From Streptomyces asoensis (GTDB lineage: Bacteria; Actinomycetota; Actinomycetes; Streptomycetales; Streptomycetaceae): 64,000 nucleotides of DNA. The position numbers and the translations under genes are program-made. The notes under the pieces are model-generated. The model saw only the letters and a program-made list of their open reading frames with translations, made no database searches and had not been told where the DNA came from. The DNA lies in contig NZ_CP049838.1 in assembly GCF_013085465.1 (NCBI RefSeq), positions 8,804,001 to 8,868,000 on the forward strand, in the 5' to 3' direction. Below, one piece after another: positions 5,164 to 29,517 of the stretch. Within the stretch, counting starts at the first letter, position 1; each line of letters opens with the position of its first letter.

Positions 5164-5197
5164 GCTCAGCGGACGGTGCTCAGCGGACGGTGCTCAG
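5164..5197. repeat. 14-bp tandem duplication at the 3' end of egtD
   Basis: GCTCAGCGGACGGT occurs at 5164-5177 and 5178-5191, followed by the first six bases of a third copy. The egtD stop codon and its last residues (S-T-V-R) are encoded in the repeat, so the second copy duplicates the stop region. It probably arose by slippage. Confidence 0.7.
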
Positions 5198-9906: not shown

Positions 9907-9910
9907 ATGA
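9830..9910 (+). CDS. Possible 26-aa leader peptide coupled to PARG gene
   Basis: A short frame from ATG 9830 (MSTTGETGGARGT...) ends with TGA overlapping the ATG of the PARG gene (ATGA at 9907-9910). This is the geometry of translational coupling. It has no recognisable family and no strong ribosome-binding site, so it may be chance in GC-rich DNA. Confidence 0.2.
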   Translation: MSTTGETGGARGTARRAAMESTGVAP

Positions 9911-14679: not shown

Positions 14680-16068
14680 ATGACGACCCGTCCCCCCGCC
14701 CCGTCCCGCCGTGCCCTGCTGCGCGCGATGGCCGTCCTGCCCGCCACGGCACTCGTGCTCGGCGAAGCGCCCGGCCTGCTCGGCACGGCCCTGGCCGCCG
14801 CACCGGCCGCCGGTTCGGCCACCCGCTACACGATCGTGCCGTTCCTCAACAGCGACGACGGAACGGTGAACGTCTACCAGTCCGACGACGCCACCGACTT
14901 CCGGCTGGTGCAGTCCTCCGCCTACACCCCGCCGAGCAACCGCATCCGCGACGCGAGCGTCTTCAAGCACACCAACGGCTACTACTACGTCACCTACACC
15001 ACCCACACCTGGCAGGACGCCAGCACCACCATCGGCTTCGCCCGCAGCTCCGACCGGGTCAACTGGACGTTCCTGTACGACTACACGGTCCCGATCGCCA
15101 ACCTCTCCCGCGCCTGGGCGCCGGAGTGGTTCGTCGACAGCGACGGCAGCGTCAACGTCATCGTGTCCTGCTCGGTGACCAGCGACGAGTGGATCTTCAC
15201 CCCGTATCTGCTGAAGGCCACCAACTCCGCGCTCACCGCCTGGAGTTCACCGGTCGCCCTGTCCGGCATCGGGCCGAACCACATCGACACCTACATCGTG
15301 AAGGTCGGCTCGACCTACCACGCGTTCACGAAGAACGAGACGGCGAAGTACATCGAGTACGGCACGGCGTCGAGCCTGGCCGGCCCCTACACGATCACCA
15401 GGACAGGTGACTGGGCGGGCTGGGGCAGCTACCGCGAGGGCCCGTCCGTCATCCAGCTCGACAACGGCGCCTGGCGGATCTTCTTCGACGGCTACGGCGA
15501 CGGCAACTACTACTGGAGCGACAGCTACGACTCCTTCGCCACCTGGAGCGCGCCCAAGGCGCTGCCCGGCATCTCCGGCACGGCACGCCACTTCACGGTC
15601 ATCAAGGAGACGGTGACCGGTGGCCCCACCCTCACGAAGAACGTCACCCGCTCCCTCCGGTCCGCCAACTACACCACCCGCTACTGGCAGGAGCAGTCCG
15701 CCCTGCTCAACCTGCCCGTGGTGACCAGCTCCAGCACCACCGCCGAGAAGCAGGCGTCCACCTTCACCGTCGTGGCGGGCCTCGCCGACGCGAACGCGTA
15801 CTCCTTCCGCGACGCCGCCGGCAACTACCTGCGCCACTACTCCTTCCGGGGCCGCTTCGACGCCAACGACGGCACGGCGTCCTTCGCGAAGGACGCCACC
15901 TTCATCGCCCGGACGGGATCGGCGAGCGGTTCGGTCCGCTTCGAGTCGTACAACTACCCCGGCTACTACCTGCGCCACTACAACTACCAGCTCCGGGTGG
16001 AACAGCCCGACGGCACGGACCTGTTCCGCCAGGACAGCTCCTTCGTGGCGGCGACCGCCTGGGCCTGA
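14680..16068 (+). CDS. Secreted GH43-like arabinosidase with AbfB (CBM42) domain
   Basis: A 462-residue exported glycosidase. Residues 1-47 form a twin-arginine signal (PSRRALLRAM, then a hydrophobic stretch ending ALAAAP). Residues about 50-325 read as the five-bladed beta-propeller of GH43/62-type arabinan or arabinoxylan enzymes (RIRDASVFKHTNGYYYVTYT, RAWAPEWFVDSDGS, GSYREGPSVIQLDNG). The last about 130 residues (SFRDAAGNYLRHYSFRGRF, NYPGYYLRHYNYQLRV) are an arabinose-binding AbfB domain. ATG at 14680 has AGGAG seven bases upstream. Likely acts on plant-wall arabinose side chains; which one cannot be told. Confidence 0.88.
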   Translation: MTTRPPAPSRRALLRAMAVLPATALVLGEAPGLLGTALAAAPAAGSATRYTIVPFLNSDDGTVNVYQSDDATDFRLVQSSAYTPPSNRIRDASVFKHTNGYYYVTYTTHTWQDASTTIGFARSSDRVNWTFLYDYTVPIANLSRAWAPEWFVDSDGSVNVIVSCSVTSDEWIFTPYLLKATNSALTAWSSPVALSGIGPNHIDTYIVKVGSTYHAFTKNETAKYIEYGTASSLAGPYTITRTGDWAGWGSYREGPSVIQLDNGAWRIFFDGYGDGNYYWSDSYDSFATWSAPKALPGISGTARHFTVIKETVTGGPTLTKNVTRSLRSANYTTRYWQEQSALLNLPVVTSSSTTAEKQASTFTVVAGLADANAYSFRDAAGNYLRHYSFRGRFDANDGTASFAKDATFIARTGSASGSVRFESYNYPGYYLRHYNYQLRVEQPDGTDLFRQDSSFVAATAWA

Positions 16069-16436
16069 GCCGCCTCCTGCTCACTCCCTGCTCACCCCGC
16101 CGCTCACCCTGCTCACTTTCCTGCGCGCCCACGAGAGGCCCGCGGTCGATGCGACCGCGGGCCTCCGCCGTCCGGGCGTCCCTCGAGGAGGCCCGGAGGA
16201 CCAAGCCAGAAACCCTCGAAGGTCCGTCATTTGACATTGCGGCTTCTTTAACGTTCACGAATGATCGGGACAGGTGAGACCCGCCGCACGGCGCGGACCG
16301 CATTCGGCCGCCGCGCCGCATGTGGCCACGGGGGGCCGGGGTCTCGGGAAAACGGGGGGACCACCCTCATGACGTCCATCGCCCTGGCCCCGTGCCCAGG
16401 TCGGGTCCATGGAAAGGTGATGGAGAGGATGACGTC
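16069..16436. other. Intergenic region between GH43 and LuxR-type genes
   Basis: 368 bp with no gene. It contains the GH43 terminator (16135-16165) and then a TTGACA hexamer at 16231-16236 in unusually AT-rich sequence, a likely -35 element for the regulator gene, although no convincing -10 at 17 bp was found. GGAGAGG directly before the ATG at 16437 is the ribosome-binding site. Confidence 0.5.
16135..16165. terminator. Strong hairpin terminator after GH43 gene
   Basis: Arms GAGGCCCGCGGTCG (16135-16148) and the exact complement (16152-16165) with a 3-nt ATG loop: a 14-bp perfect GC-rich stem 66 bp after the glycosidase stop codon. Confidence 0.75.
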
Positions 16437-17306
16437 ATGAGCTTGGGCAGCAGCCCGACGCAACAGCCCCTGACCCCAGCCGGCTCGCCGCTGGAGTCCC
16501 TGCTGCGGATCGCCGACACGCTCAGCAGCCTCGAGCGGTACGCCACCGAGACGGCCGGCCAACTGGTCCTCGCCGAGGACACGTGCGCCGAGGCCGCCGA
16601 GGCGCCGGGCAGCATCCGGTACGTCGAGGGCCGGGGCGCCGTCCAGGACGCCGTCGACGAGGTGCTGTGGCGGGCGAAGCGCGAGATCCTCACCTCCCAT
16701 CCGGACGGACCGGACCCCGCGCCCCCGCTGGACGAGACCTGGGCGGCGGTCCACGACCCCCTGACCCGCGGAGTCGTCATGCGGACGCTGTTCCAGCACA
16801 GCGCCCGGTTCTCCGAGCCGACGAAGAAATACGTGCAGCAGGTCATGAGTTACGGCGTGGAGGTGCGCACGCTCCCGGAGTTCTTCGACAGGCTGGTCGT
16901 CGTCGACGGTGAGGTCGCCGTCATCCCCGGCGGCGAACACGGCCACAGCGCGGCACTGATCCGGGACCGCGCCGTCGTCGCCTTCCTCGGTGACGTCTTC
17001 GAGCGGGCCTGGGTACGGGCCGAGCGGTTCCCGTTCCGTCCGGTACGTGCGGCGGACGCGGCCGGCGAGGTCGTGCCGGACCTGCGGCAGGCCATCACGA
17101 CGCTGCTGATCGAGGGCCGCTCCGACAAGGCGATCGCGCGCCGCCTCGGCATGAGCCTGCGGTCCGTGCAAAGCCATATCGCCTCCCTCCGCGAGCAGTA
17201 CGGCGCCCAGCACCGCTTCCAACTCGGCTACGAGATGGCGCGCGACGCGTACGCCGCCGCGCCCACCGTCGCCGTGCCCACCGCCCCGGCCGGGTCCGCC
17301 CCGTAG
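16437..17306 (+). CDS. LuxR C-terminal HTH regulator with PLD/TrmB-like sensor domain
   Basis: A 289-residue regulator. Residues about 70-200 (YVEGRGAVQDAVDEVLWRAK, REILTSHPDG, FFDRLVVVDGEVAVIPGG) resemble the phospholipase-D-like ligand domain seen in TrmB-type and many Streptomyces LuxR orphans. The C-terminus (about 215-275: LLIEGRSDKAIARRLGMSLR, SVQSHIASLREQYGA) is a LuxR helix-turn-helix. It has no receiver domain. It is convergent with, and 34 bp from, the biosynthetic operon at 17341-23583, and is the nearest candidate regulator for it, but this is only proximity. Confidence 0.85.
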   Translation: MSLGSSPTQQPLTPAGSPLESLLRIADTLSSLERYATETAGQLVLAEDTCAEAAEAPGSIRYVEGRGAVQDAVDEVLWRAKREILTSHPDGPDPAPPLDETWAAVHDPLTRGVVMRTLFQHSARFSEPTKKYVQQVMSYGVEVRTLPEFFDRLVVVDGEVAVIPGGEHGHSAALIRDRAVVAFLGDVFERAWVRAERFPFRPVRAADAAGEVVPDLRQAITTLLIEGRSDKAIARRLGMSLRSVQSHIASLREQYGAQHRFQLGYEMARDAYAAAPTVAVPTAPAGSAP

Positions 17307-17313
17307 TCGGCCC

Positions 17314-17339
17314 CGGCCGGGAACGGCTTTGTCCGGCCG
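17314..17339. terminator. Hairpin between convergent regulator and biosynthetic operon
   Basis: CGGCCGG (17314-17320) and CCGGCCG (17333-17339) form a 7-bp stem with a 12-nt loop, exactly filling the gap between two converging stop codons. Confidence 0.4.
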
Positions 17340-17340
17340 C

Positions 17341-18018
17341 CTACTTCTGCGCCATCAGCAGATACTCGTGCGACCGGTTCGTCCGCATCGGGTCGTCGTC
17401 CTTGACCGGCCAGTCGTAGAGGTGGACGCGTTCGTCCCCCAGGGTCAGATGACGGCCGAGCACGCGCGCCGCGTCCCAGGCCAGCGGGACGAACCGGTCC
17501 GCCAGCCGCCGGTTCTGGACGGCCACGACCGCGTAGGCGCCCGGCCGCATCACCCGAGCGACGGCCGCGAACGTCTCGTCGAGCGCCGCCAGATAGACGT
17601 CGTAGTCGCGCAGCGCGTACATCTGCCCGGGGTCGGGCGACTCGGCGTCCAGATCGGTGCCGAAGTACGGCAGGTCGCACAGGACGAGGTCCACGGTGCC
17701 GGGGTCGAGCGGAGGCTTGCGGGCGTCGCCGCAGAGCATGCGCTGCTCCGGGTAACGCGCGACGCGCTGTTGAGCCTCCTGCGCGCGCGAGGGGTTGATC
17801 TCGATGCCGACCCCGCGCCGCCCCTCGGCCGCGCAGGCCACCAGAGTGGTGCCCCACCCGGCGAAGGGATCGAACACCAGGTCGCCCGGCTTGCTCAACT
17901 CCGTTATCAGCGGCCGCAACTGGCTGACGAGACCACTCTGCCCCGCGACCTCCTCCAGTGCGAACTCCGGGTCCTCTGCGCCGAGCACACGCCAACTGGA
18001 AATCCCCATGACGGTCAC
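17341..18018 (-). CDS. SAM-dependent methyltransferase of the DNA/RNA (DLPY) type, last gene of biosynthetic operon
   Basis: A 225-residue Rossmann methyltransferase. Motif I is DPFAGWGTT at 50-58 and the catalytic-type motif IV is DLPYF at 115-119, the form used by N-methylating nucleic-acid enzymes (N6-adenine, N4-cytosine, or guanine-N2 of tRNA). Motif I comes before motif IV, the reverse of the common beta-class N6/N4 enzymes. There is no restriction gene beside it. The GTG at 18018 overlaps the MFS gene by 4 bp (GTGA); an ATG three codons in is the alternative. In this operon it could methylate the product or a nucleic-acid target for self-protection; neither is shown. Confidence 0.75.
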   Translation of the reverse strand: MTVMGISSWRVLGAEDPEFALEEVAGQSGLVSQLRPLITELSKPGDLVFDPFAGWGTTLVACAAEGRRGVGIEINPSRAQEAQQRVARYPEQRMLCGDARKPPLDPGTVDLVLCDLPYFGTDLDAESPDPGQMYALRDYDVYLAALDETFAAVARVMRPGAYAVVAVQNRRLADRFVPLAWDAARVLGRHLTLGDERVHLYDWPVKDDDPMRTNRSHEYLLMAQK

Positions 18019-19280
18019 GCAACCTTTCTGGTGGGGCCGGTATCGGAGACGGCCGGTCCGGCCGTGGGCAGCACCGGATGCACCGCGGCCCGGGGCAGCG
18101 TGCGCTCGAGGCGCAGCACACCCAGCGCGGAGCCTGCCGTGGCCGCCGCGAGCAGCAGCCACATCCCGGTGGCCGAGAGCGACAGCAGGGCCGTGAGCAC
18201 GGTCGGCGCGAGCGCGATGGGCACCGCCCAGGACAGCTGGTAGACCGCGAGATGACGGCCGCGGGTCTCCTCCGGCGCGGCCTGGGCCACCAACGCGGAG
18301 GCCGTGGCGCCGTGCAGCAGCTCGCCCGCGGTGAACGCGGCCACCGCGGCGAACACACCGGCGATCAGCGCGGCCCCGGTCGACACACTGCCGAGCACCG
18401 CGAAGGTGACGAACGACAGCGCGAAGATGCCCGCGCCGAGCGCCACCGCACGCGTTCGGCGATATCTGACCAGGACCCGGGTGACCGGAATCTGGAGCAC
18501 CGCGATCCCCACCGTGTTGACCGCGTACAGGACGCCCACCAGCGAGACGGGCGCGTCCAGTTCACGGGTGAGATACACCGGCAGGGCCACGGACAGCACC
18601 ATGTACCCGAAGGCGGTCGGGATGTTCAGCAGCGTGAGGCCCAGGAAGGGACGGTTGCGCGCCACCATCCGGTAGCCGCCCTTGCGGGAGACCCGGTCGC
18701 CCGCCGGCTGTGCCGACGCGCCGGGGCGGATCGTACTGAGCAGCGCGGCCGACAGCAGATAGCCGGCGGCCGCGCCGAGCACGACGAAGTAGAACCCGGA
18801 CTCGTCCAGGGCGAGGGCCGCGCCCGCGAGGAGGCCGCCCACGCCCATCCCGGCGTTGCGCAGACTGCGCTGGAGGGCGAGCAGCTTGTCCCGCTCGGCG
18901 CCTCGTACGATCTCCGCCACGAAGGACTGGATGGCCGGCGGGTAGGAGGTGTCGCCGAGCGCGACCGGCAGCACCACCGCGAACATGGCCACGCCGTTGT
19001 CGACCAGGGGATAGGTGCAGAACGCCGAGGCGCGCAGCACGTATCCGCCCACCAGCACGGCGCGGGCGCTGAAGCGGTCGATCAGCACGCCGGCGACCGG
19101 GTTGCTCACCAGACCGATCACCGAGGCGGCCGTCACGATCGCGCCGACCTGGGTCAGCGGCAGATCGGTGACGTGGTGGAAGTAGAGGAGCGACAGCGGC
19201 AGGTACATGCCGCTGCCGGTCGCGTCGACGATCATGCCCAGCATGTACTTGAAGCGGACGGACGACAGCTTCTCCCTCAT
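18015..19280 (-). CDS. MFS transporter (probable product exporter)
   Basis: A 421-residue major facilitator with about 12 hydrophobic segments. MFS motif A is present in the 2-3 loop (GVLIDRFSARAVLVGG), and YVLRASAFCTYPLV and GDTSYPPAIQSFVAEIV are typical of drug-type exporters. ATG at 19280 overlaps the ATP-grasp gene by 4 bp, and the stop overlaps the methyltransferase start. In an operon with two peptide-type ligases it most likely exports the finished small molecule and gives self-resistance. Confidence 0.88.
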   Translation of the reverse strand: MREKLSSVRFKYMLGMIVDATGSGMYLPLSLLYFHHVTDLPLTQVGAIVTAASVIGLVSNPVAGVLIDRFSARAVLVGGYVLRASAFCTYPLVDNGVAMFAVVLPVALGDTSYPPAIQSFVAEIVRGAERDKLLALQRSLRNAGMGVGGLLAGAALALDESGFYFVVLGAAAGYLLSAALLSTIRPGASAQPAGDRVSRKGGYRMVARNRPFLGLTLLNIPTAFGYMVLSVALPVYLTRELDAPVSLVGVLYAVNTVGIAVLQIPVTRVLVRYRRTRAVALGAGIFALSFVTFAVLGSVSTGAALIAGVFAAVAAFTAGELLHGATASALVAQAAPEETRGRHLAVYQLSWAVPIALAPTVLTALLSLSATGMWLLLAAATAGSALGVLRLERTLPRAAVHPVLPTAGPAVSDTGPTRKVA

Positions 19281-20584
19281 GCCGTCTCCACCGCCACGAT
19301 CTTCGTCTCCGCGATGACCCGGGCGCCCAGGGCACGCAGTCTGCGCTCGCATGCGACCCGGGTCGGGGCCGAACCCACCACCGCGGTGAGGAAGTCGGCG
19401 GAACCCGACGCCGGGGCGATCACCTGCCCCTCCTCGGCGAAGAGCCAGAAGCCCCGCACCCACTCCTCGTCGGGGACCGCGGGCAGCGAACGCACCAGAC
19501 CGGGCCGCTTCATCGTGAGCACCTGCCCCGACATGCAGCGCGGCCGCAGTCGCCCCTCGGCGTCCGTGGCGCCCTCGACCGCGGGCAGCGGGAGACCGGC
19601 CTCCGCACGGGTCACCTGCACGGCGAGCTGGATCCCGAAGAGGGTCTCGAACACCTCACGGATCTTCGCGCCGCCCGAGCGGCCCGCGATCTCGCACAGC
19701 ACCAGACGGTCGTCGGGCGTGTGGAACACCTCCGCGTGGAAGGCGTGCGTGCGCAGCCGCGAGTCCTCGGGCTTCAGGGCCGCCAGGGTCCGCTCGATCA
19801 GCGTGAGCAGCCGGGGGGTGAGCGGGTCGTCCACGTCCAGGGTCAGATCGACCCGCGGCCCGGGGTCGGCCCCGAACGAGGCCAGCTCGTACTGGTACTG
19901 GGAAGGCCAGGCGGCCACGGTGCGCCCGTCCACCACCAGCCCGTCGACATGGCACATCCGCCCGGGAACGTACGCCTCGATCAGCAGGTCGTCCCGCGGA
20001 CCGCCGCCGTAGGCCTGTGCGAGCCGCAGCTCCAGCTCGTCGGGGTCGGCGATGATGCGCAGCCCGATGGAGTTGTAGCCCGCCCGGTCCTTCAGCACCA
20101 CCGGGAATCCGTACCGTGCGGCGAAGTTGCGGGCCTCCCGGGCGGTGCCCGGCACGGTGTGCGGGGCGACCTCGATGCCGGCCCGCCGGGCCAGCCGCTT
20201 CATCAGGGCCTTGTCACGGAACGGCGTGATGTCGGCGCTCCACGCCCCGTCGAGGCCGAGACGCTCGCGCAGCCGGGCGGCGAGGAGCACGTCCGCCTCG
20301 TGGTGGGCGATGACGTGCGTGATCCGGTACTCCTCGGCGAGGGCGAGCGCGCGGGACGGCACCGCCTCGTCGTCGAGGGTGTCGAAGAGTTCGAGGTGGG
20401 TGAAGTCGTGGCCGGTGCCGTCCGGGATCTCCTCGCCGGCCAGCTCGATCTTGTCCCGGGCGGCGAGGACGACGACATCGCCCGGATACGGCGCCGAGCC
20501 GTCGAGGCCGGGCGCGTCCCCGTCCAGCCACCGGCGGTAGGGGAAGGCGGCGAACGGGTTGCGGTGCAGGACGAGGACGCTCAT
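19277..20584 (-). CDS. ATP-grasp amide/peptide ligase, first of two
   Basis: A 435-residue ATP-grasp protein. An N-terminal Rossmann-like part (MSVLVLHRNPFAAFPYRRWL) precedes the grasp fold: RDKALMKRLARRAGIEV, YGFPVVLKDRAGYNSIGL (ATP-binding Lys), LIEAYVPGRMCHVDGLVVDG, and the Mg-binding EIAGRSGGAKIREVF. It belongs to the carboxylate-amine ligase group (BtrJ, PGM1 and TabS are characterised relatives in concept) that activates a carboxylate as acyl phosphate and joins it to an amine. Both ends overlap neighbours by 4 bp. Substrates are unknown. Confidence 0.87.
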   Translation of the reverse strand: MSVLVLHRNPFAAFPYRRWLDGDAPGLDGSAPYPGDVVVLAARDKIELAGEEIPDGTGHDFTHLELFDTLDDEAVPSRALALAEEYRITHVIAHHEADVLLAARLRERLGLDGAWSADITPFRDKALMKRLARRAGIEVAPHTVPGTAREARNFAARYGFPVVLKDRAGYNSIGLRIIADPDELELRLAQAYGGGPRDDLLIEAYVPGRMCHVDGLVVDGRTVAAWPSQYQYELASFGADPGPRVDLTLDVDDPLTPRLLTLIERTLAALKPEDSRLRTHAFHAEVFHTPDDRLVLCEIAGRSGGAKIREVFETLFGIQLAVQVTRAEAGLPLPAVEGATDAEGRLRPRCMSGQVLTMKRPGLVRSLPAVPDEEWVRGFWLFAEEGQVIAPASGSADFLTAVVGSAPTRVACERRLRALGARVIAETKIVAVETA

Positions 20585-21882
20585 GCCGGGACCACCGTCC
20601 GGTCGCTCACCGGCGCGGCAGCGGCCAGGCCCGGCCGGCCGTCGGGGTCCTTCACCCAGACCTTCACCACGTCGCCGACGAGTTCCGCGCCGCGCCGGAT
20701 CGCCGCCGTGGTGTCCTCGCCGGTCACGGCGACCAGGCCGAGGCGGTCCCAGTTGTCCCGCAGGGGACGCACCGTCTCCCCGGGCCTGGCGCTGATGCGT
20801 ACCGCGAGCACATCGGCGAGCGCCTGTGCCTCGGCCACGCCGTCCACCGCCTCCACGACGTCGCCCGGCCGGCCCACCACGGACCGCACGGCGGCCCCGC
20901 CGTGCGCCTCGGGCCGGTCGGGTAGCTCCTCGGCCAGGCCGAAGGGCGCGGCGAGGGCGAGCTTGACGGTGTCGATGCCGTAGACGCTGTACACCAGGTC
21001 GGTGATGGCGTCACCGGCGATCCGGTTGTGGCTCTCGATGACGCGGGGACCGCGGGCGCCGATCCGGATCTCGGTGTGGCAGACGCCGTCCCTGACGCCG
21101 AGCCGGTCCAGGAAGCCGGTGACGGCCGCGCGTACCCGCTCGTCGACCCCCGCGCCGAGCCGGGCGGGGACCGCGTGGCCCAGTTCGGCGAAGTGCGCGG
21201 GGTCGGTGAACTTCTCGGTGACGGCGATGACCACATGGCGTCCGGCGGAGCTGAAGGACTCCACGCTGTACTCGGGGCCGTCGAGGTACTCCTCCATCAG
21301 GAAGTCCCGCAGCAGCATCAGCGTCGAGACCCGGTCCGTCCTGGTGCCCGACAGCCGCCGTACCTCGGCCCAGACCCGCTCGGCGTCGGCGGGCCCGTCG
21401 AGGCGGTACACACCGATACTGGCGGTGGCGTCCGTCGGCTTCACGATGAAGGGGTAGCCGTACCGCTCCCCGAAGGCGTCCAGGTCCTCGCGCCCGCGCA
21501 GCGGCCGGGCGTGCACCGCGTCGGGGTCGAGCCCGGCCAGGTGCTCGCGCATGACGACCTTGTCGCGGAAGCGCCGGGTCACCTCGTAGCCGGTGCCGCC
21601 CAGGCTGAACAGGTCGTTGACACGGGCCGCGTTCTCCAGGCCCGGCTCGGTGATCGAAGTGGCGGCGGCGAAGCCGGGGGAGTCCCACAGCCGCCTGGCT
21701 ATCGGCTCCACCAGGTCCCAGCGGGTGTAGTCGACGACCTCCACCCGGTCGGCGAGGCGCTCCTGCTCGGCACTGATCTTCGTGGGGTGCTGGAGCAGCA
21801 GGACGTACAGGCCCAACTGCTTGGCCTTGAACACGGTTTCGTCGGTGGCCCCGACGAGCAGCAGTGAACGCTCAGGATTCAT
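20581..21882 (-). CDS. ATP-grasp amide/peptide ligase, second of two
   Basis: A 433-residue ATP-grasp ligase, only distantly similar to its neighbour. Order: N-terminal domain (SLLLVGATDETVFKAKQLGL), TGYEVTRRFRDKVVMREHL, YGYPFIVKPTDATASIGVYR (ATP-binding), FLMEEYLDGPEYSVESFS, and catalytic metal site ESHNRIAGDAITDL. The C-terminal 100 residues match the extra domain of carboxylate-amine ligases (PGETVRPLRDNWDRLGLVA). Two different ligases in one operon suggest two successive amide bonds, as in small peptide antimetabolites. It overlaps the acetyltransferase gene by 11 bp. Confidence 0.87.
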   Translation of the reverse strand: MNPERSLLLVGATDETVFKAKQLGLYVLLLQHPTKISAEQERLADRVEVVDYTRWDLVEPIARRLWDSPGFAAATSITEPGLENAARVNDLFSLGGTGYEVTRRFRDKVVMREHLAGLDPDAVHARPLRGREDLDAFGERYGYPFIVKPTDATASIGVYRLDGPADAERVWAEVRRLSGTRTDRVSTLMLLRDFLMEEYLDGPEYSVESFSSAGRHVVIAVTEKFTDPAHFAELGHAVPARLGAGVDERVRAAVTGFLDRLGVRDGVCHTEIRIGARGPRVIESHNRIAGDAITDLVYSVYGIDTVKLALAAPFGLAEELPDRPEAHGGAAVRSVVGRPGDVVEAVDGVAEAQALADVLAVRISARPGETVRPLRDNWDRLGLVAVTGEDTTAAIRRGAELVGDVVKVWVKDPDGRPGLAAAAPVSDRTVVPA

Positions 21883-22588
21883 GGGTCCGTTCCGATCCGT
21901 TCCGGTGTGAGGGCCGCGCGTCCGTGCGCGGGCCCTCCGTGGGGGTGAGGGCGGGCAGGCGGTCGGCCGGCACCTGGTCCGCGGTCGCGGTGCCGGGCAA
22001 CTCGCCCACCGCAGCCGGGGATTCGGGCAGTTGCTCGATGGTCGCCCGTGGGGCGTTCACATGCACCCCCTTGGGCACGTCACGGAGCACCAGGGACATC
22101 GCGCCGATCAGGGCGTCGTCGCCGACGGTGATCGGCCCGAGCAGGGTGGCCCCCGCGCCGACCGTCACACCGTTGCCGAGCCGGGGATGCCGGCGGCCGC
22201 CCTGCCGGGCGCGCTCCTGCTCGTGCCACCAGCCGAAGGACCCGAGCGTGACCTGGTGGAAGAGTGACACGTCGTCACCGATGACGGCGGTCTCACCGAC
22301 CACGACCCCGCTGCCGTGGTCGACGAAGAACCGCCGGCCGATCTGCGCGCCCGGATGGATCTCGATGCCTCCGGTGAGCACCTTGGTGGTGGTGCACACC
22401 AGCCGCGCGACGAGACGACGGCCGTGCCGGTAGGCGAAGTTGCTCGTCCGGTGGCCCAGCAGGGCCAGCACCGTCGGATGCAGCAGCGCCTCGGTGCGGG
22501 ACCGGACCGAGGGGTCGCGGGCGACGATGACGTCGAGGGTCTCCCCGATCCGCCGGCGCAGCGAGGGCGAGGTGCGCGCCGGGCTCAT
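21872..22588 (-). CDS. Serine O-acetyltransferase (EpsC/CysE type)
   Basis: A 238-residue left-handed beta-helix acyltransferase. EpsC-type features: VIVARDPSVRSRTEALLHP, TGGIEIHPGAQIGRRFFVDH, GSGVVVGETAVIGDDVSLFH, RHPRLGNGVTVGAGATLLGP. These enzymes transfer acetyl from acetyl-CoA to the serine hydroxyl, giving O-acetyl-L-serine for the PLP enzyme encoded just upstream (4-bp ATGA overlap). A 60-residue Pro-rich tail follows the helix; it lacks the usual inhibitory Ile terminus, so feedback inhibition by cysteine may be lost (inference). Confidence 0.87.
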   Translation of the reverse strand: MSPARTSPSLRRRIGETLDVIVARDPSVRSRTEALLHPTVLALLGHRTSNFAYRHGRRLVARLVCTTTKVLTGGIEIHPGAQIGRRFFVDHGSGVVVGETAVIGDDVSLFHQVTLGSFGWWHEQERARQGGRRHPRLGNGVTVGAGATLLGPITVGDDALIGAMSLVLRDVPKGVHVNAPRATIEQLPESPAAVGELPGTATADQVPADRLPALTPTEGPRTDARPSHRNGSERTHES

Positions 22589-23583
22589 CCGGCCGGCCGC
22601 GACGCGCCGCCGACCGCGACCCGGGCCGGCTCCCGCGGGGCCTCCTGGGCCTCGGGCCACCAGCTGAGGTAGCGCTCTCCGGTGTCGGGGAAGACGGTGA
22701 CGACCGTGGCACCGGCCAGGTCGTGTCGGCGTGCAAGCTCCAGACAGCCGTACGCGGCGGCGCCCGAGGAGACACCGACCAGCAGTCCGGTGGCGGCGGC
22801 GATGGCACGGGTGGTGGCCGCCGCGTCCTCGTCCTCGACCACGATCACCTCGTCGATGACCGAGACGTCGGTGACCGGGCTGGTGAATCCGCCGTTCAGA
22901 CCGGGGATCCGGTGCGGTCCCGGCTCGCCGCCGGACAGCAGCGGGGAGCCCGCGGGCTCGACCGCCACGACCCTCAACGCCGGGTTGTGTTCCCGCAGAC
23001 GGTGGGCGATCCCGGTCAGGGTGCCGCCGGTGCCGACGCCGCACACCAGATGGTCGACGTCGCCGCCGGTGTCCCGCCAGATCTCCGGGCCCGTGGTCTC
23101 GTAGTGCGCCCGTACGTTGGCGGCGTTCAGGTGCTGGCCCGCGTACCAGGACCCGGGAGTGTCGGCGTGCAGCTTCTCGGCGCGCTCCACACAGCCGGCG
23201 AAACCGAGGGTGTGGTCGGTGAACTCGACCTCGGCGCCCAGCATGCGCAGCGTCAGCAGGCGCTCCCGCGAGGCGTTGTCGGGGAGCACGATCCGGCAGG
23301 CGTAGCCGCGGGCGGCGGCCAGCGCGGCCAGGGCGATACCGGTGTTGCCCGAGGTGGACTCGACGATCGTCCCGCCGGGCCGCAGTGCCCCCGACTCCTC
23401 GGCGGCGCGGAGCATGAACAGCGCCGCCCGGTCCTTGATGCTGGACAGCGGGTTGGCCGCCTCCAGCTTGGCCAGCACACGGGCGTCGGCGGGCAGCCCC
23501 GGCAGGCTCAGCCGCAGCATCGGGGTGTTGCCCACGAGTTCCTCGAGTGAGCCGACGACACTGCCGGTGGATGGTTCGGTCAC
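22585..23583 (-). CDS. Cysteine-synthase-like PLP enzyme (beta-substituted alanine synthase)
   Basis: A 332-residue fold-type II PLP enzyme. PLP Lys is K50 (NPLSSIKDRAAL); substrate loop TSGNTG at 77-82; phosphate loop VGTGGTLTG; TTGPEIWRDTGG and AVEPAGSPLLSGG follow. Housekeeping CysK has PETMS after the SGNTG helix, whereas this has PDNAS (101-105), and GIGAGF is replaced by GLNGGF; these changes near the active site argue for a nucleophile other than sulfide. First gene of a six-gene operon; GTG start at 23583. It is reminiscent of SbnA/DcsD-type enzymes in non-proteinogenic amino-acid pathways. Confidence 0.85.
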   Translation of the reverse strand: MTEPSTGSVVGSLEELVGNTPMLRLSLPGLPADARVLAKLEAANPLSSIKDRAALFMLRAAEESGALRPGGTIVESTSGNTGIALAALAAARGYACRIVLPDNASRERLLTLRMLGAEVEFTDHTLGFAGCVERAEKLHADTPGSWYAGQHLNAANVRAHYETTGPEIWRDTGGDVDHLVCGVGTGGTLTGIAHRLREHNPALRVVAVEPAGSPLLSGGEPGPHRIPGLNGGFTSPVTDVSVIDEVIVVEDEDAAATTRAIAAATGLLVGVSSGAAAYGCLELARRHDLAGATVVTVFPDTGERYLSWWPEAQEAPREPARVAVGGASRPAG

Positions 23584-23813
23584 GGGGCCCTCCGGATCGG
23601 TTCTGCTCGAGACGTGCCACGGGTTCCGTGCGCTTTTCCGTGGTCACGTGCACACCCAGAATCTGCCGCGCTCGGTGCGCGATGGCCACGCCGCCCATGG
23701 TTCGGGTTGCCGCACTGCACTGATTGCGGGGGTCCCGCGCGGCGTACCGCCTGGTTCAACTCCGTACGTTCGAACGCGAGGTCGAAGACCTGTCCGGATA
23801 CGGGGGTACGTTG
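23584..23813. promoter_or_regulatory. Divergent promoter region, biosynthetic operon / indigoidine synthetase
   Basis: 230 bp that must hold the promoters of both the six-gene operon and the synthetase gene. The only clear symmetric element is CGTTCGAACG at 23767-23776, 37 bp before the synthetase ATG. No standard -35/-10 pair was recognised. Confidence 0.4.
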
Positions 23814-26800
23814 ATGAAGAGCCGGGATGCCACCGCGTCTTGTCTGCCCGATCTGCTCAACTCGCAGGCTCTCGCCCGCCCCGGCGACATCGCCGTGGTC
23901 CACGAGGGGGAGTCGCTCACCTTCCGCGAGCTGGCCGACAAGGCCGATGACGTGGCGCGTTACCTGCACCACCTCGGCGTCGGCGCGGACGCGGGCGTGG
24001 GGCTCTTCGTCGAGCCCTCACTGGATCTGATGATCGGCGTCTGGGGCATCCTGAGATCCGGCGGCGCCTATCTCCCGCTCGCGCCCGACTACCCGGCTGA
24101 GCGCATCCGCCACATCGCGCAGGACGCCCGCATAGGCGTCGTCCTCACTCAGGAGTTCCTGCGGGACCGGCTGGCGGAGTTCCTCGCCGCGGACACCGTC
24201 GTCATCACCCTCGACGACGTCGTGGAGTTCACGAAGGGCCGGTCCGACGCGGATCCGGCCGAACTGCCCGACGGCCCGCGTCCGGCGGATCTCGCGTACG
24301 TCATCTACACCTCGGGCAGTACCGGTCGGCCCAAGGGCGTGACGATCGAGCACCGCTCCATCGCGCACCAGATGCGCTGGCTCACCGATTGCTTCGCGCT
24401 CGACGCCGGCAAGACCGTTCTCCAGAAGACCCCGATCAGTTTCGACGCGGCCCAGTGGGAGATCCTGGCTCCCGCGTGCGGCAGCCGGGTCGTGGTCGGG
24501 TCCGGTGGGATCCACCGGGATCCCACCGGCCTCGTCGAGGCCGTCACCCGCCATTCCGTCACCACCCTGCAAGGGGTGCCCACGCTGCTCCAGGCGCTGC
24601 TCGACACCGACGAACTCGACCGCTGCACCTCGCTCACCCACCTCTTCAGCGGTGGCGAGACGCTGTCCCGGTCACTCGCCGGACAACTCACCCGGGCGCT
24701 GCCGGGGGCCGATCTGGTCAATCTCTACGGCCCCACCGAGTGCACCATCAACACCTCGGCGTACACCGTCGATCCGGGGGCTCTCGACGAGGGTCCCGAC
24801 GCCCTGCCGATCGGCGTGCCGGTGACCGGCCTGCGCTACCACATCCTGGATGCCGAAGGCCGTCCCGTGGCGGTCGGTGAGACCGGTGAACTGCACATCA
24901 GCGGCGTCCAGTTGGCACGCGGCTATCTGCACCGGCCCGAGCTCACCGCCGACCGCTTCCTGCCGAACCCGAACCCGAGCCCGAGCCCGAGCCCAAGTCC
25001 GTACGGGAACCCGAACCCGAACCCGAGTCCGTACGCGCACGCGCCCGGTCACGACCGGTTGTACCGCACCGGCGATCTGGCGTACTGGAACCCCGACGGC
25101 ACCGCCCAGTTCGCCGGCCGGGCCGACAACCAGGTCAAGCTGCGCGGCTTCCGGATCGAGCTGGACGAGGTACGCCTGGCCATCGAGGCCCACGACTGGG
25201 TGCGGAACGCCGCCGTGCTGCTGCGCACCGACCCGCGCACCGGCGCCCAGAACCTGGTGGCCTGCATCGAACTGAGCCCGCGCGAGGCCGCGTTGATGGA
25301 CCAGGACGAGCACGGCGAACACCATGTGTCGAAGTCGTCCAAGCTCCAGGTCAAGGCCCAGCTGTCGAACCCGGGCGTGCGGGACGCGGCCGATCTCTCC
25401 GGGCGGCCCACCGTGCGCCTGCCCGGCGCCACCGCCCGTCCCGAACAGCGGCGCCGGGCCTTCGCCCGCAAGACGTACCGCTTCTACGAGGGCGAGCGGC
25501 TGGAGGCGGCGGACGTGCTGGCGGCGCTCGGCCGGTGCACCGAGGGCGTCGGTTCGCGTCGTCCCGAAGAGCTGACCCTGCCCGAACTCGGCGACGTATT
25601 ACGGAACTTCGGACAACACCTCAGCCCGGAGCGGCTGCTGCCCAAGTACGCGTACGCCTCCCCCGGATCCCTCTACGCGACGCAGCTGTACCTGGAACTC
25701 GCCGGGGTCGCGGGCCTGCCCGCGGGCTGCTACTACTACCACCCGGTCAACCACGAGCTGGTGCTGGTCCACCGCGAGGAGTCGGCCGAGACGGCCGGAA
25801 CCGCCGACGCCACCGGGGCACGGGTGCATTTCATCGGCCGCAGATCGGCGATCGAGCCGGTGTACAAGAAGAACATCCAGGAGGTCCTGGAGATCGAGGC
25901 CGGGCACATGGCCGGCCTGTTCGACGAGGTCCTGCCCGCCCACGGCCTCGCCCTCGCCGAAGCGCCCCACGACAGCGCTCCCACGCGGCTCCTGGGCTGC
26001 GCCGAGGACGACTACCGGCTGGGCTCCTTCGCGCTGGTGCCGTGGACGGCGGCGCACGGGCGACCCCCCGCGCACGACTCCCTCGACATCCATGTGCAGT
26101 TCCACCCGGGCAGCGAGGCCGGCCTGCCCGGCGGCCAGTACCGGTACCTGGACGGCAGGCTGCACCGGATCAGCGACGAGCTGGTCCTCAAACGGCATGT
26201 GATCGCCATCAACCAGGCCGTGTACGAGCGGTCGGGCTTCGGCATCACCCTCGTCAGCCGCGCCGCCGAGCAGGGCAGGGAGCGGCACAGCTATCTGGAC
26301 CTCGGCCGTGGGCTCCAGCACCTGATGATGAACACCAGTGGTCTGGGCTTCATGTCCGCCGGCTACAGCTCGCGCGCCGGGGACGACCTGCCCGCCGCCA
26401 GGCGTATGACGGCGATCCTGCGGGAGGCGGGGCAGCGCACCGGGCCCTCGTACTTCTTCGTCGGCGGTCCGGTCAGCCAGGACCAGCTCCGCCACGAGGG
26501 CATGCACGAGGACCAGGTGCACATGAAGGGTCCGGCGGAGCTGATCAGGGAGGACCTGGCGGCGTCGCTGCCCGCGTTCATGCTCCCCGGCCGGATCCTG
26601 GTGCTGCCCGAGCTGCCGCACACGCCCAACGGCAAGCTCGACACCAAGGCCCTGGAGGAGCACGTCGACGAGGCGGCGTCCGGCGCCCAGCTGGTGGTGG
26701 AGCCGCGCAACAAGGTCGAGGCCCGGCTGTGCGACCTGTGGAAGTCGGCGATGCAGCGCGACTCCCTCTCCGTGCACGACGACTTCTTCCAACTCGGCGG

Positions 26801-27755
26801 GAACTCGGTGATCGCGGTCGCGCTGGTCAAGCGGATCAACGAGGCGTTCGGGCTCAGCCTGCCGCTCCAGCTGCTGTTCGAGGCGACCACGGTGGCGAAG
26901 CTGGCCGAGGCGGTGGCCGCCCGAACCGCCGTGGCCACGTCCCGGCTCGCTCCGCTGCGGGCGGGGGGCAGCGAGCCGCCGGTGTTCTGCTGGCCGGGGC
27001 TCGGTGGCTTCACCATGAACCTGCGGCTGCTCGCGGCCCGTGCGCCGGGGGAGCGGCCGGTGTACGGCGTCCAGTCGCACGGCATCAACGAGGGCGAGAC
27101 GCCGTTCCCGTCCATCGAGGAGATGGCCGCCGCCGATGTCGCGGCGCTGCGGCGGGTCCAGCCGGCGGGGCCCTACACGCTGTGGGGCTACTCCTTCGGT
27201 GCGCGGGTCGCCTTCGAGACGGCATGGCAGTTGGAGCGGTCGGGCGAGCGGGTGGAGCGGCTGTTCCTGCTGGCACCGGGACTGCCGCGGGTGCCCGGCG
27301 TCCCGGAGGCGACACCGGCCGATGCACCGGCCGAGGCACTGGCCGACTTCGCCGATCCCGTCTTCACCACCGTCCTCTTCTCCGTCTTCGCCGGTACGGT
27401 CAGCGGCCCGGTCCTGGAGGAGTGCCTGCGCGAGTCCACCGACGCGGAGAGCTTCGCGCGGTTCGTCGATCGCCGGTTCCCGCAACTGGACCCCGACCTG
27501 GTCCGCCGGGTGGTGGCCGTGGTCTGCCGTACCTACGGGTTCACCTACGACCACGTCGACCCGGCCGCCCGTCGGGTCTCCGCGCCCGTCACGGTGTTCC
27601 GGGCGCGGGGCGACGAACCCTCCTTCATCGAACGCGTCCCGGGCCGCACCGTGGTCCCGCCCACCGTCGTCCAGCTGGAGGCGGACCACTACGGGGCGCT
27701 GCGCGACCCGGGCGTCGACGAGCTGGTGAAGGCGCTGCGGCGCGCCACGCCCTGA
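23814..27755 (+). CDS. Indigoidine synthetase-type single-module NRPS (A-Ox-T-TE)
   Basis: A 1313-residue one-module NRPS very like BpsA/IndC (about 1282 residues), which makes blue indigoidine from two glutamines. Adenylation core: YTSGSTGRPKG at 165-175, FDAAQWEI (substrate pocket as in BpsA), NLYGPTEC, YRTGDLAYWN. A flavin oxidase domain (about 480-880; KTYRFYEGERLEAADVL, PVYKKNIQEVLEIEAGHMAG, LQHLMMNTSGLGFMS) is inserted before the A10 motif (LPHTPNGKLD, about 937). Thiolation Ser998 (LGGNSVIA) and thioesterase Ser1127 (GYSFGAR) are intact. Leu596 is a TTA codon, so translation may need bldA tRNA. A 26-residue Asn/Pro/Ser repeat (384-409) is unusual. ATG at 23814 gives the best fit to BpsA. 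Confidence 0.93.
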   Translation: MKSRDATASCLPDLLNSQALARPGDIAVVHEGESLTFRELADKADDVARYLHHLGVGADAGVGLFVEPSLDLMIGVWGILRSGGAYLPLAPDYPAERIRHIAQDARIGVVLTQEFLRDRLAEFLAADTVVITLDDVVEFTKGRSDADPAELPDGPRPADLAYVIYTSGSTGRPKGVTIEHRSIAHQMRWLTDCFALDAGKTVLQKTPISFDAAQWEILAPACGSRVVVGSGGIHRDPTGLVEAVTRHSVTTLQGVPTLLQALLDTDELDRCTSLTHLFSGGETLSRSLAGQLTRALPGADLVNLYGPTECTINTSAYTVDPGALDEGPDALPIGVPVTGLRYHILDAEGRPVAVGETGELHISGVQLARGYLHRPELTADRFLPNPNPSPSPSPSPYGNPNPNPSPYAHAPGHDRLYRTGDLAYWNPDGTAQFAGRADNQVKLRGFRIELDEVRLAIEAHDWVRNAAVLLRTDPRTGAQNLVACIELSPREAALMDQDEHGEHHVSKSSKLQVKAQLSNPGVRDAADLSGRPTVRLPGATARPEQRRRAFARKTYRFYEGERLEAADVLAALGRCTEGVGSRRPEELTLPELGDVLRNFGQHLSPERLLPKYAYASPGSLYATQLYLELAGVAGLPAGCYYYHPVNHELVLVHREESAETAGTADATGARVHFIGRRSAIEPVYKKNIQEVLEIEAGHMAGLFDEVLPAHGLALAEAPHDSAPTRLLGCAEDDYRLGSFALVPWTAAHGRPPAHDSLDIHVQFHPGSEAGLPGGQYRYLDGRLHRISDELVLKRHVIAINQAVYERSGFGITLVSRAAEQGRERHSYLDLGRGLQHLMMNTSGLGFMSAGYSSRAGDDLPAARRMTAILREAGQRTGPSYFFVGGPVSQDQLRHEGMHEDQVHMKGPAELIREDLAASLPAFMLPGRILVLPELPHTPNGKLDTKALEEHVDEAASGAQLVVEPRNKVEARLCDLWKSAMQRDSLSVHDDFFQLGGNSVIAVALVKRINEAFGLSLPLQLLFEATTVAKLAEAVAARTAVATSRLAPLRAGGSEPPVFCWPGLGGFTMNLRLLAARAPGERPVYGVQSHGINEGETPFPSIEEMAAADVAALRRVQPAGPYTLWGYSFGARVAFETAWQLERSGERVERLFLLAPGLPRVPGVPEATPADAPAEALADFADPVFTTVLFSVFAGTVSGPVLEECLRESTDAESFARFVDRRFPQLDPDLVRRVVAVVCRTYGFTYDHVDPAARRVSAPVTVFRARGDEPSFIERVPGRTVVPPTVVQLEADHYGALRDPGVDELVKALRRATP
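24963..25040. repeat. Degenerate 6-bp tandem repeat inside the NRPS adenylation domain
   Basis: CCGAAC and CCGAGC hexamers repeat through 78 bp, coding for alternating Asn-Pro and Ser-Pro with two Pro-Tyr breaks. The reading frame is kept. The stretch lies between the conserved TADRFL and RLYRTGDL segments, where BpsA has a short acidic loop. Confidence 0.8.
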
Positions 27756-27848
27756 CCGACGGCCGGCACCGGCACCGGCACCGGCCCCACGACAGACCCA
27801 CGCGACCGACCGACGTGACCGACCGACGTGACAGACAAGGAAGCCCTC

Positions 27849-28073
27849 ATGCCCCACGTGACCATTCAGCACTTCCCGAAGTCCCTGACCGCAGAGCAGC
27901 GGTCCCGCCTGGTGGAGCAGGTGACGGCCGCCGTCCGGGAGGCGTTCGAGGTCGAGGAACGGGTGATCTCGATCGCCCTGGCGCCCGTCCCGCCCGAGGA
28001 CTGGGACGCGCGCGTCTACCAGCCCGAGATCGCCGCGCACCGCGAGGAGCTGGCGAAGGCACCGGGCTACTGA
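27849..28073 (+). CDS. 4-oxalocrotonate tautomerase-like protein
   Basis: A 74-residue protein starting MPHVTIQHFPKSLT; after Met removal Pro1 is the catalytic base of the tautomerase superfamily, and the helix AEQRSRLVEQVTAAV is typical. An in-frame start 21 bp upstream would bury the proline, so the ATG at 27849 (AAGGAAG before it) was chosen. It lies 93 bp after the indigoidine synthetase gene on the same strand and may be cotranscribed; it could tautomerise the reactive aminopyridinedione formed by the synthetase, which is an inference from position only. Confidence 0.8.
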   Translation: MPHVTIQHFPKSLTAEQRSRLVEQVTAAVREAFEVEERVISIALAPVPPEDWDARVYQPEIAAHREELAKAPGY

Positions 28074-28127
28074 GCGGCCCCTGGCGACGCCGCGCGGTCC
28101 GGAGCGCGCGAGCCGTACGCGCGGTGG

Positions 28128-28159
28128 ACCGGGCCGGGTTGTCGGGGCCCCGGCCCGGT
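28128..28159. terminator. Bidirectional hairpin terminator
   Basis: ACCGGGCCGGG (28128-28138) pairs perfectly with CCCGGCCCGGT (28149-28159), loop 10 nt, between the converging tautomerase and DUF3500 genes. Confidence 0.65.
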
Positions 28160-28176
28160 GGTCGGGCGGTCCGACG

Positions 28177-29517
28177 TCACCGGTGGTGCGGCGACGTCAG
28201 GTAGTGCTGCCTGAGGAGCTCCTTGCCGTAGTCGTTGCCGTTGGGGGTGCGGACGATGGAGTGGACGTGCTTCTGGGTGGCGCCGCTGCCCTGGGTGGCG
28301 CCGTACGCGCCCGCGAGGGGGCCCGGAGCCTGGCAGTCGACCTCGATCCAGACGACGGGGCTGTGGACGCGGACGTAGAAGGCGTCGTCGTCGCCGGTGC
28401 CGCCGGCCCAGGTGACGTAGGTGTCGTCGACATGCTTGCGGACCTCGGCCAGCGTCACCTTCGCCACGTCGGCCCTGGCGCGCCCGGTGAAGGCCTGCAC
28501 GATGCCGAGGAGCTTGGTCTTCTGGGCCGCGGTCAGGGCGTTGCCGCGGATGCCGGTGTACTCCTGGACCGCGTTGTCGGAGAACGCGCCCGCTTTCATC
28601 GACTCGTTGGACTTGGTGGACGACTCGATGGCGAGCGCCTGCTGCGCCTGGCTGAGGGAGTTGATGAAGGCGAGGCCGGCGACGACCTCCTCGTGGCAGA
28701 CGGTCACCGTCTCCCCGTCGATCTCCATCGAGGTCGGCTCCGAACCCCAGAAGCAGGGGCTCATCACGACCTGATCGCCGAGGACGAAGTAGTTGATGAC
28801 CAGATGGTGGCCGTCGAACTGGAAGCCCCAGGGCTCGGTCGCCGACGGGGTACCCAGCACGGTCCAGTAGTAGGCGTCCTCGTTGAAGGAGTCGGTGTTG
28901 CCGATGGCCTCGCCGGCCGCCTGGTTGATCTTCCGGATCTTCTCGGTGGTCTCCAGGCCGTCGGCGCTGAGCGCCGACTTCAACAGGGCTGTGCCCAGAG
29001 CCTTCTGATCGTCACTCAGGTCGGATAGGGACACGCCCTGGCGGGCGTAGGAGTCGACGTTGCTCCACAGCCGCCACTCGGTGGAGTGGACCGTGAACTG
29101 CGTCGAGGCCTTCTGGGTGTCGCTGAGCCCGGCCAGGAAGGCGTTCGCGGCGGCGATCACCGGGGCGGTCTTCACGCCCGTGGAGTGGATCGTGAACAGG
29201 TCGTCGATCCGCTTGCCGTCGGTGGTGAGACCGAAGAAGTCCTCGGTGATCGACTGGTTGCCGGGGCCCCCGGTACCGCCGCCCGGACCCCCGCTGGGCG
29301 CGCCGCTCGGCACCGCGCTCGGGTCGGTGGTGGCCGTGGCGGTGGCATCGTCGGCCAGCGCGGCCCAGGCTCCGGCCCCGCCCATGGTCGCGACGGCCGT
29401 GGCCCCGCCGGCGAAGAAGACCTTGCGCATGAAGTTGCGGCGGCTCGCGTGCGCACGGCGGCCGGCTTCGGACTGGGTCTCGTGGGCCGTCGGTTCACCG
29501 GAGTCGAGCTCGGTCAT
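28177..29517 (-). CDS. Exported DUF3500 protein (Tat signal)
   Basis: A 446-residue protein with a twin-arginine motif (ASRRNFMRKVFFAGG, about residues 25-39) placed after an extended polar N-terminus, a Ser/Gly/Pro linker near 60-85, and a large domain of unknown function DUF3500 (FQFDGHHLVINYFVLGD, MSPCFWGSEP, DDAFYVRVHSPVVWIEVDCQ, HVHSIVRTPNGNDYG). The conserved His-rich stretches suggest a metal or haem-related role but no reaction is established for this family. It is probably folded in the cytoplasm and exported to the wall. Confidence 0.82.
   Translation of the reverse strand: MTELDSGEPTAHETQSEAGRRAHASRRNFMRKVFFAGGATAVATMGGAGAWAALADDATATATTDPSAVPSGAPSGGPGGGTGGPGNQSITEDFFGLTTDGKRIDDLFTIHSTGVKTAPVIAAANAFLAGLSDTQKASTQFTVHSTEWRLWSNVDSYARQGVSLSDLSDDQKALGTALLKSALSADGLETTEKIRKINQAAGEAIGNTDSFNEDAYYWTVLGTPSATEPWGFQFDGHHLVINYFVLGDQVVMSPCFWGSEPTSMEIDGETVTVCHEEVVAGLAFINSLSQAQQALAIESSTKSNESMKAGAFSDNAVQEYTGIRGNALTAAQKTKLLGIVQAFTGRARADVAKVTLAEVRKHVDDTYVTWAGGTGDDDAFYVRVHSPVVWIEVDCQAPGPLAGAYGATQGSGATQKHVHSIVRTPNGNDYGKELLRQHYLTSPHHR

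Follow-up and report, generated by a model that had tools for sequence, protein, structure and literature searches.

Minimycin (or oxazinomycin) is formed by MinA-MinB-MinC. MinA, a nonribosomal peptide synthetase (NRPS) with A, Ox, T, TE and Tau (tautomerase) domains, oxidizes and cyclizes glutamine, and two fates await the resulting intermediate: spontaneous coupling to indigoidine, or tautomerization by Tau into the substrate on which MinB forms the C-glycosidic bond (PMC8724604). In the indigoidine synthase IdgS, TE is reported to make (S)-3-aminopiperidine-2,6-dione first, which Ox dehydrogenates afterwards (PMC10989907). A related ring maker is encoded in a 64-kb stretch of the Streptomyces asoensis genome (the whole stretch analyzed, hereafter “the window”; 8804001-8868000 of one 10.04-Mb contig, NZ_CP049838.1), where an NRPS of the indigoidine synthase (IndC) type and a tautomerase lie divergently from a six-gene operon that encodes a CysK-like, pyridoxal phosphate (PLP)-dependent enzyme (K), a serine acyltransferase (E), two ATP-grasp ligases (A1, A2), an exporter (F) and a methyltransferase (M). 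On balance, we favor the view that the product of this cluster is a small exported peptide containing a heteroaryl-alanine, the ring of which would come from the NRPS and the tautomerase and would be coupled by K.

Like the minimycin pathway, the cluster combines a presumably glutamine-specific A-Ox-T-TE NRPS and a tautomerase with a second enzyme that would capture the product (PMC8724604). However, in the proposed capture a PLP enzyme of the CysK type would place the ring on a serine unit, whereas MinB uses a sugar; IndA is absent from the cluster, and the proposed product is an amino acid or peptide instead of a nucleoside. A MinC-type HAD phosphatase or DUF4243 is not among the Pfam matches of the cluster’s open reading frames (ORFs), with no search aimed at MinC made. 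Domain order and A-domain pocket motifs are shared with the indigoidine synthases IndC, IdgS and BpsA, but the locus is no stand-alone pigment locus: tautomerase and K adjoin the NRPS. Passages on phosphonoalamide biosynthesis, also in Streptomyces, describe two ATP-grasp ligases, PnaB and PnaC, which join a non-protein alanine analogue to a dipeptide; there, however, the amino acid derives from phosphonopyruvate, and these passages name no CysK-like enzyme or NRPS (PMC11867202).

The claim of an earlier, sequence-only reading of this DNA that no cluster with exactly this gene set has been described holds for the open-licence literature, in which none was found (MIBiG, patents and subscription papers lay outside the search). 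In D-cycloserine biosynthesis, the CysK homologue DcsD joins a non-sulfide nucleophile (hydroxyurea) to O-acetylserine, and the pathway includes an ATP-grasp enzyme and a transporter of the major facilitator superfamily (MFS), three components that recur here. Nevertheless, the likeness to dapdiamide and cycloserine pathways suggested in the sequence-only reading is not borne out: A1 scores 22 against the DdaF equivalog (cut-off 840), and arginase, racemase and homoserine-acetyltransferase domains are absent from the nine cluster ORFs (16.4-28.1 kb). Plant β-substituted alanine synthases, e.g., for mimosine, willardiine and pyrazolylalanine, use a CysK fold to couple a heterocycle to O-acetylserine; in plants this is a side activity of O-acetylserine (thiol) lyase, whereas K forms a bacterial clade of its own, in linkage with enzymes that make rings.

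Gene organization and the NRPS-tautomerase pair

All six minus-strand ORFs of the operon were found without internal stops, in agreement with the sequence-only reading, and overlap by 4, 11, 4, 4, and 4 bp along K-E-A1-A2-F-M. The overlap of F and M depends on a GTG start of M at 18018; in several relatives, M is called from the methionine of MG.SSW, which in the window would leave a short gap and no overlap. The operon is thus real, but it is only part of a larger cluster, which extends to the divergent NRPS and tautomerase on one side and to a regulator on the other:

16437..17306, plus strand: regulator with a LuxR/GerE-like helix-turn-helix at its C-terminus; start ATG 16437, with another in-frame ATG upstream at 16320
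17341..18018, minus strand: M, small S-adenosylmethionine (SAM) methyltransferase with DLPYFG motif; N6_N4_Mtase-like SAM motif
18015..19280, minus strand: F, MFS exporter (PF07690, 4e-44)
19277..20584, minus strand: A2, ATP-grasp ligase; among solved structures, its profile fits the L-amino acid ligase 4wd3 best
20581..21882, minus strand: A1, L-amino acid ligase of the ATP-grasp type, related to BL00235 and BacD; has an LAL_C2 domain
21872..22588, minus strand: E, EpsC-type serine acyltransferase with QVTLG..GWW segment
22585..23583, minus strand: K, CysK-like and PLP-dependent, in a clade of its own (Q150-H151, GLN230GGF); GTG start; proposed β-heteroaryl-alanine synthase
23584..23813: divergent intergenic region from K to the NRPS; presumed promoter region
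23814..27755, plus strand: IndC-type NRPS, A-Ox-T-TE; start picked by eye in an ORF that opens at 23724
27849..28073, plus strand: 4-oxalocrotonate-tautomerase-type protein (PF01361), starting Met-Pro

Pfam and NCBIfam assign the operon’s products to PALP/cysKM (K), EpsC-type serine acetyltransferase (SAT; E), ATP-grasp_4 with LAL_C2 (A1), a second ATP-grasp family (A2), MFS_1 (F) and an N6_N4_Mtase-like family (M). The named close homologues come for the most part from Streptomyces. No sigma-70 consensus site was seen in 16000-28500.

The NRPS comprises 1313 aa with A, T, and TE domains by Pfam. Between the A core and a weak AMP-binding_C match lies a segment for which Pfam gave no match, and which is identified as Ox because of its homology to IndC proteins: it matches 1108 proteins among 8000 candidates, such as the “Putative indigoidine synthase IndC” of S. 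davaonensis. The pocket motifs of the A domain (FDAAQWE, TTLQGVPT, LFSGGE, and NLYGPTECTIN) equal those of other IndC proteins, FDAAQWE being found in 117 of the 120 listed IndC homologues, and the pocket code, read by eye against PheA anchor positions, is presumably DAWQFGLIN(K), i.e., of the glutamine type. With Ox inserted beside A, T, and TE and with these pocket motifs, the protein has the features of an indigoidine synthase. Its codon 596 is a TTA, the only one in the gene; in Streptomyces, this codon often marks bldA control.

The tautomerase (74 aa) scores 33.2 bits against PF01361 (cut-off 22) and 77.6 bits against the PptA model, below the cut-off of 83. An MbtH protein, as its size would suggest, is ruled out by the Met-Pro start and the PF01361 match. 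Among the listed IndC homologues longer than 1150 aa, 39 of 116 carry a tautomerase fused at the C-terminus (blastp; 38 by motif), and the gene at 27849-28073 encodes this domain as a separate protein. Since NRPS and tautomerase adjoin K, a maker of a C-nucleophile sits beside a β-replacement enzyme, and the nucleophilic tautomer would be an amino-dihydroxypyridine. The sequence-only reading had already proposed a nucleophile other than sulfide, but had omitted the divergent NRPS and tautomerase, which are its likeliest source.

Conservation and linkage of the gene set

A profile scan for A2, with one genome per species, yielded 80 loci (numbered L; genomes are numbered G), which were evaluated over flanks of ±10 kb with fixed score limits for all families (at least 150 bits for A2). 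Genes in relatives were predicted with a codon-based caller, which overlooked some of them, e.g., the K of L005, recovered by tblastn. A2 is retained in 70 of the 80 loci, together with K in 50, A1 in 55, E in 31, F in 39 and M in 25. In support of the sequence-only reading, the genes form a unit that stays together across relatives: K and A1 co-occur in 50 of the 70 loci, and K, A1, and F in 36, and this conservation argues against a chance grouping.

The NRPS lies in the flank of 21 of the 70 loci, always together with K, and the tautomerase in 20; all three are present in 16. Wider stretches place the NRPS in the same cluster for several relatives whose flank stopped short. Across 199 Streptomyces genomes, including the window’s own, the Ox segment was detected in 8 of the 10 that carry A2 vs. 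21 of the 189 that lack it (Fisher p 3e-6). It lies at most 20 kb from A2 in 6 of the 8 genomes with both, and on another contig in G014 and G038; no K was seen in the stretch around the A2 locus of G014. The two A2 genomes without Ox are G012, which has the AsnB set described below, and G046, the stretch of which holds A2, another ligase and a flavin mononucleotide (FMN) reductase, with no ring-making set seen.

The C-glycosynthase IndA (Indigoidine_A, PF04227) is absent from all 35 loci with the NRPS inside a cluster with K or ligases (at L160, K lies outside the stretch, and at L144-L149 and L157 on a neighboring one). It also has no match in the window, the part of the own genome that was searched for it. 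Where the NRPS lies apart from the K cluster, which is the case in nine loci (not counting seven further NRPS-positive genomes whose first flank lacks it), IndA is present in eight and K in none of the stretches; L154 has neither. Several of these unlinked IndA loci also carry UPRTase-, PRAI- and PRPP-synthetase-type genes. IndA and K are therefore mutually exclusive in the loci examined, which implies that the maker of the NRPS product pairs either with a C-glycosynthase or with K. Moreover, L143 has no ligase gene across 19.5 kb; it encodes E and K together with an NRPS-tautomerase fusion, as well as the regulator, a cupin, an EamA transporter and an MFS protein. K is thus tied to the NRPS, and not to the ligases alone. 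The regulator family adjoins the cluster in 13 of the 70 A2 loci and also at L143, where its GerE score exceeds the cut-off; that of the window’s regulator is slightly below (22.8 bits, cut-off 23.5).

In some relatives, a different gene set may supply the ring. The Ox segment is missing in 9 of 36 genomes searched, and AsnB is found at the locus in six of these nine (L031, L032, L050, L054, L055, and L057), in all but L057 beside PrpF-family, acyl-CoA-dehydrogenase-like, and dihydroorotase-like genes; the best model for the PrpF-family protein is 4-oxalomesaconate tautomerase. Within the flank, this AsnB family occurs in none of the 27 Ox-positive genomes, and K adjoins the set in L054 and L055, slightly outside the first flank. 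The AsnB set would match four functions of the NRPS and the tautomerase, i.e., amide formation, ring closure, dehydrogenation and tautomerization, and could yield a like ring.

The CysK-like enzyme and the proposed pathway

K shares at most 43% identity with any further PALP protein encoded in the genome; three of these look like a CBS, a CysM-like and an SbnA-like protein. In a quick tree, in which long branches remain (L083 and others), the K group (53 rows) stands apart from 10 actinobacterial CysK rows (SH-aLRT 99 and 97). The tree holds 28 of the 30 loci from a CysK-model search, L112 (the window’s own K) and L103 (a stop in the aligned stretch) having been dropped, as were the own-genome row of L084 and the frameshifted row L058_11362. 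A position among housekeeping cysteine synthases would have spoken against the sequence-only reading; K falls outside the 10 CysK tested.

After the conserved Gln, K has His (QH), where CysK has QF in 11 of 11 and CBS-like rows have QY; further on, K reads GLNGGF, CysK GIGAGF or GLGAGF (in all six of the 11 for which this motif could be compared) and the CBS-like rows GVGEDF. H151 and N230, which on the basis of OASS structures we take to line the acceptor channel, are both present in 49 of 50 K from NRPS-positive genomes, the lone exception being frameshifted. Among nine K from NRPS-negative genomes, three have both, and the rest read DG, EG, AG or HT (Fisher p 1e-5, a guide only because the presence of the NRPS depends in part on the K clade). 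These two residues are more telling than the PDNAS loop, whose departure from PETMS had earlier been taken to indicate a new nucleophile: a paralogue from the same genome (43% identity) has PENTS there, which makes the loop a weak sign. The E. coli CysM motif is PDNMS.

E scores 156.6 against the EpsC model NF041874 (cut-off 150) and 166.2 against CysE, TIGR01172 (cut-off 210.65), and is the sole SAT homologue found in its genome. Acetylated serine, the donor in the sequence-only reading, is uncertain, because no SAT homologue was found (E 1e-10) in 8 relatives among 16 genomes searched (L001-L006, L010, and L012), the six closest tested included; the other eight genomes had one. K of the relatives without SAT would need either a different donor, with O-phosphoserine as a candidate, or an acyltransferase unrelated to SAT. 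Arg225 of K, considered as a mark of O-phosphoserine use in relatives without E, does not correspond with the absence of E. In the stretch covered, E was not seen in L027, L028, L040, L041, L044, L045, L047, L048, L051, and L052. In the cysteine synthase complex, the tail of SAT docks into the partner enzyme. A terminal-Trp tail (mostly ASAGSW), absent from the window’s E, is found on 13 E proteins, mostly of the second K clade (L025, L026, L029, L031, L032, L037, L038, L046, L053, L057, L058, L158, and L143) and might by analogy serve for docking to K.

The presence of two dissimilar ATP-grasp ligases, as proposed earlier, is confirmed: both A1 and A2 combine the ATP-grasp fold with kinship to L-amino acid ligases, and A1, as with DdaF, scores far below the cut-off of the BacD equivalog (56, cut-off 850). 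F is likewise an MFS gene, as the sequence-only reading stated, and export is its predicted function. The nearest folds to an AF2 model of M (pLDDT 78.6) are Trm11/TrmN m2G methyltransferases.

From this gene content we infer the reactions, including the C–C bond, the ligation order and the methylation site, as follows. The NRPS would activate L-glutamine, cyclize it to 3-aminopiperidine-2,6-dione and dehydrogenate the product, which the tautomerase would convert to a C-nucleophilic tautomer, taken as 3-amino-2,6-dihydroxypyridine, as in minimycin biosynthesis. E, where present, would acetylate serine. K would form the PLP-aminoacrylate from O-acetylserine (or O-phosphoserine) and add the pyridinedione in place of sulfide, giving β-(aminodioxopyridinyl)-alanine (C8H11N3O4 is the predicted formula, with [M+H]+ calculated by hand as 214.0822) and thereby filling the place of the C-glycosynthase MinB/IndA in C-nucleoside pathways. 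M might then N-methylate the ring amine, A1 and A2 would link the new amino acid to one or two more amino acids, and F would export the product. A β-substituted alanine, as in the sequence-only reading, remains likely. The links between the genes are strong, whereas what K catalyzes is predicted; our preferred view is that the cluster represents, in compact form, a family not yet described, which leads from the indigoidine monomer to an amino acid and on to a peptide.

Several observations weigh against this pathway. In the nine genomes with the NRPS outside the K cluster, eight of which have it in an IndA-type cluster, the ring would need to be supplied in trans; K also occurs in some genomes without a linked NRPS, and a search of the L050 genome, which has the AsnB set and ligases, turned up no close K. 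The K-linked NRPSs are spread over several lineages of the NRPS tree, which used every second listed homologue, and do not form one clade there, M is missing from most K-II loci, and the relatives without SAT add to these points. The H/N signature is confounded with K phylogeny, and three of the nine NRPS-negative K carry it. K is narrowly below the cut-off of the CysK equivalog TIGR01139 (339.6 bits, cut-off 350.95) and above that of the cysKM subfamily TIGR01136 (348.4 bits, cut-off 344.15); the TIGR01139 score alone is not decisive, because the K-type protein of L111 (G056) exceeds the cut-off (352.3). A possible but rather doubtful alternative is that K makes an ordinary building block, such as cysteine, 2,3-diaminopropionate or another small β-substituted alanine, to which a ligase joins the NRPS ring via its amine or another group. 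The cysKM score, the K-type protein of L111, the genomes with K but no linked NRPS, and L050 are in keeping with this idea. However, ligase-free L143 keeps NRPS-tautomerase, E and K together, H151 and N230 are unlike CysK and track the presence of the NRPS, and K scores far below the cut-off of the SbnA equivalog TIGR03945 (236 vs. 349.95 bits).

It is unlikely that the same ring and K yield an N–C bond instead, with the ring amine or the imide nitrogen attacking the aminoacrylate in a willardiine- or mimosine-like manner, although plant CysK-type enzymes do make N-linked heterocyclic alanines. The product of NRPS and tautomerase is the substrate of MinB for a C-glycosidic bond (PMC8724604), and the tautomerase is retained near K in many loci, both of which speak for attack by carbon. 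Very improbably, NRPS and tautomerase constitute an independent indigoidine pigment locus that adjoins the operon by chance: the homologues of the NRPS include named indigoidine synthases, and Ox is widespread in Streptomyces (29 of 199 genomes), but the linkage recurs in several NRPS lineages, Ox is far more frequent in genomes with A2, and the either-or pattern with IndA and the gene content of L143 point the other way. That SAT and CysK-like genes adjoin in a genome with no other SAT would suit a housekeeping operon for cysteine synthesis with unrelated ligases; this is hardly credible in view of the separate K clade, the position of the locus at 8.8 of 10.04 Mb, the close relatives without E beside K, and the fusion of E to A1 in Microbispora.

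If the heteroaryl-alanine pathway is correct, it would provide a new route to such amino acids from glutamine and serine, in which an indigoidine enzyme leads to amino acid antimetabolites, and its CysK-fold enzyme, possibly forming C–C bonds, would be useful for biocatalysis. IndC, tautomerase and K (QH/GLNGGF) would then make a small gene signature for finding more such clusters, and one NRPS product should end up in a nucleoside if IndA acts on it and in an amino acid if K does. A wider scheme can be put forward only tentatively: K may form a C–C bond to the NRPS-made pyridinedione, IndC and tautomerase may feed either C-nucleosides (IndA) or C-linked amino acids (K), and the AsnB set, unrelated to the NRPS, may replace it in some relatives, resulting in modular antimetabolite peptides with interchangeable rings.

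Other relatives and neighboring genes

Genes for 3-deoxy-D-arabinoheptulosonate 7-phosphate (DAHP) synthase, aminodeoxychorismate synthase and nitrosuccinate lyase were considered as an alternative ring source. For relatives in Streptomyces and Kitasatospora, this idea was abandoned when wider stretches revealed the NRPS in those clusters; the set looks more like a route to 4-aminophenylalanine. In L027, L028, and L041 from Micromonospora it may still serve as a ring source, since the NRPS regions examined for two of them lie apart and hold IndA. In a number of large relatives (L007, L009, L043, L045, L047, L051, L052 (with L144-L149 and L157), L159, L163, and L164), the core is accompanied by 4-aminophenylalanine-type genes and several extra ATP-grasp ligases, in some cases with nitrite-forming CreE/nitrosuccinate-lyase-like genes; these likely make a peptide containing amino- or diazophenylalanine. 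Distant A2 relatives (about 28-34% identity; L059-L065, L068-L071, and L076), from Bacillus, Vibrio, Thermoactinomyces, Paenibacillus, Tumebacillus, Chromobacterium and others, have no K match in the locus and belong to other peptide pathways.

Clusters with IndC and Indigoidine_A (L150-L153, L155, L156, L166, and L167), several of which include PRAI-like, UPRTase, PRPP synthetase, FMN oxidoreductase and EamA genes, are probable further C-nucleoside pathways; one lies on a 241-kb contig of an S. lavendulae genome. In the window, a DUF3500 protein (28177-29517) adjoins the tautomerase and is excluded from the cluster because it shares no family with the relatives’ loci seen. Farther away, a complete ergothioneine operon, egtD-egtC-egtB-egtA, occupies 5180-9625 on the minus strand, with all four products above the NCBIfam cut-offs, and a microbial PARG-type protein is encoded at 9826-10767 (PF10021; TIGR02452 above cut-off).

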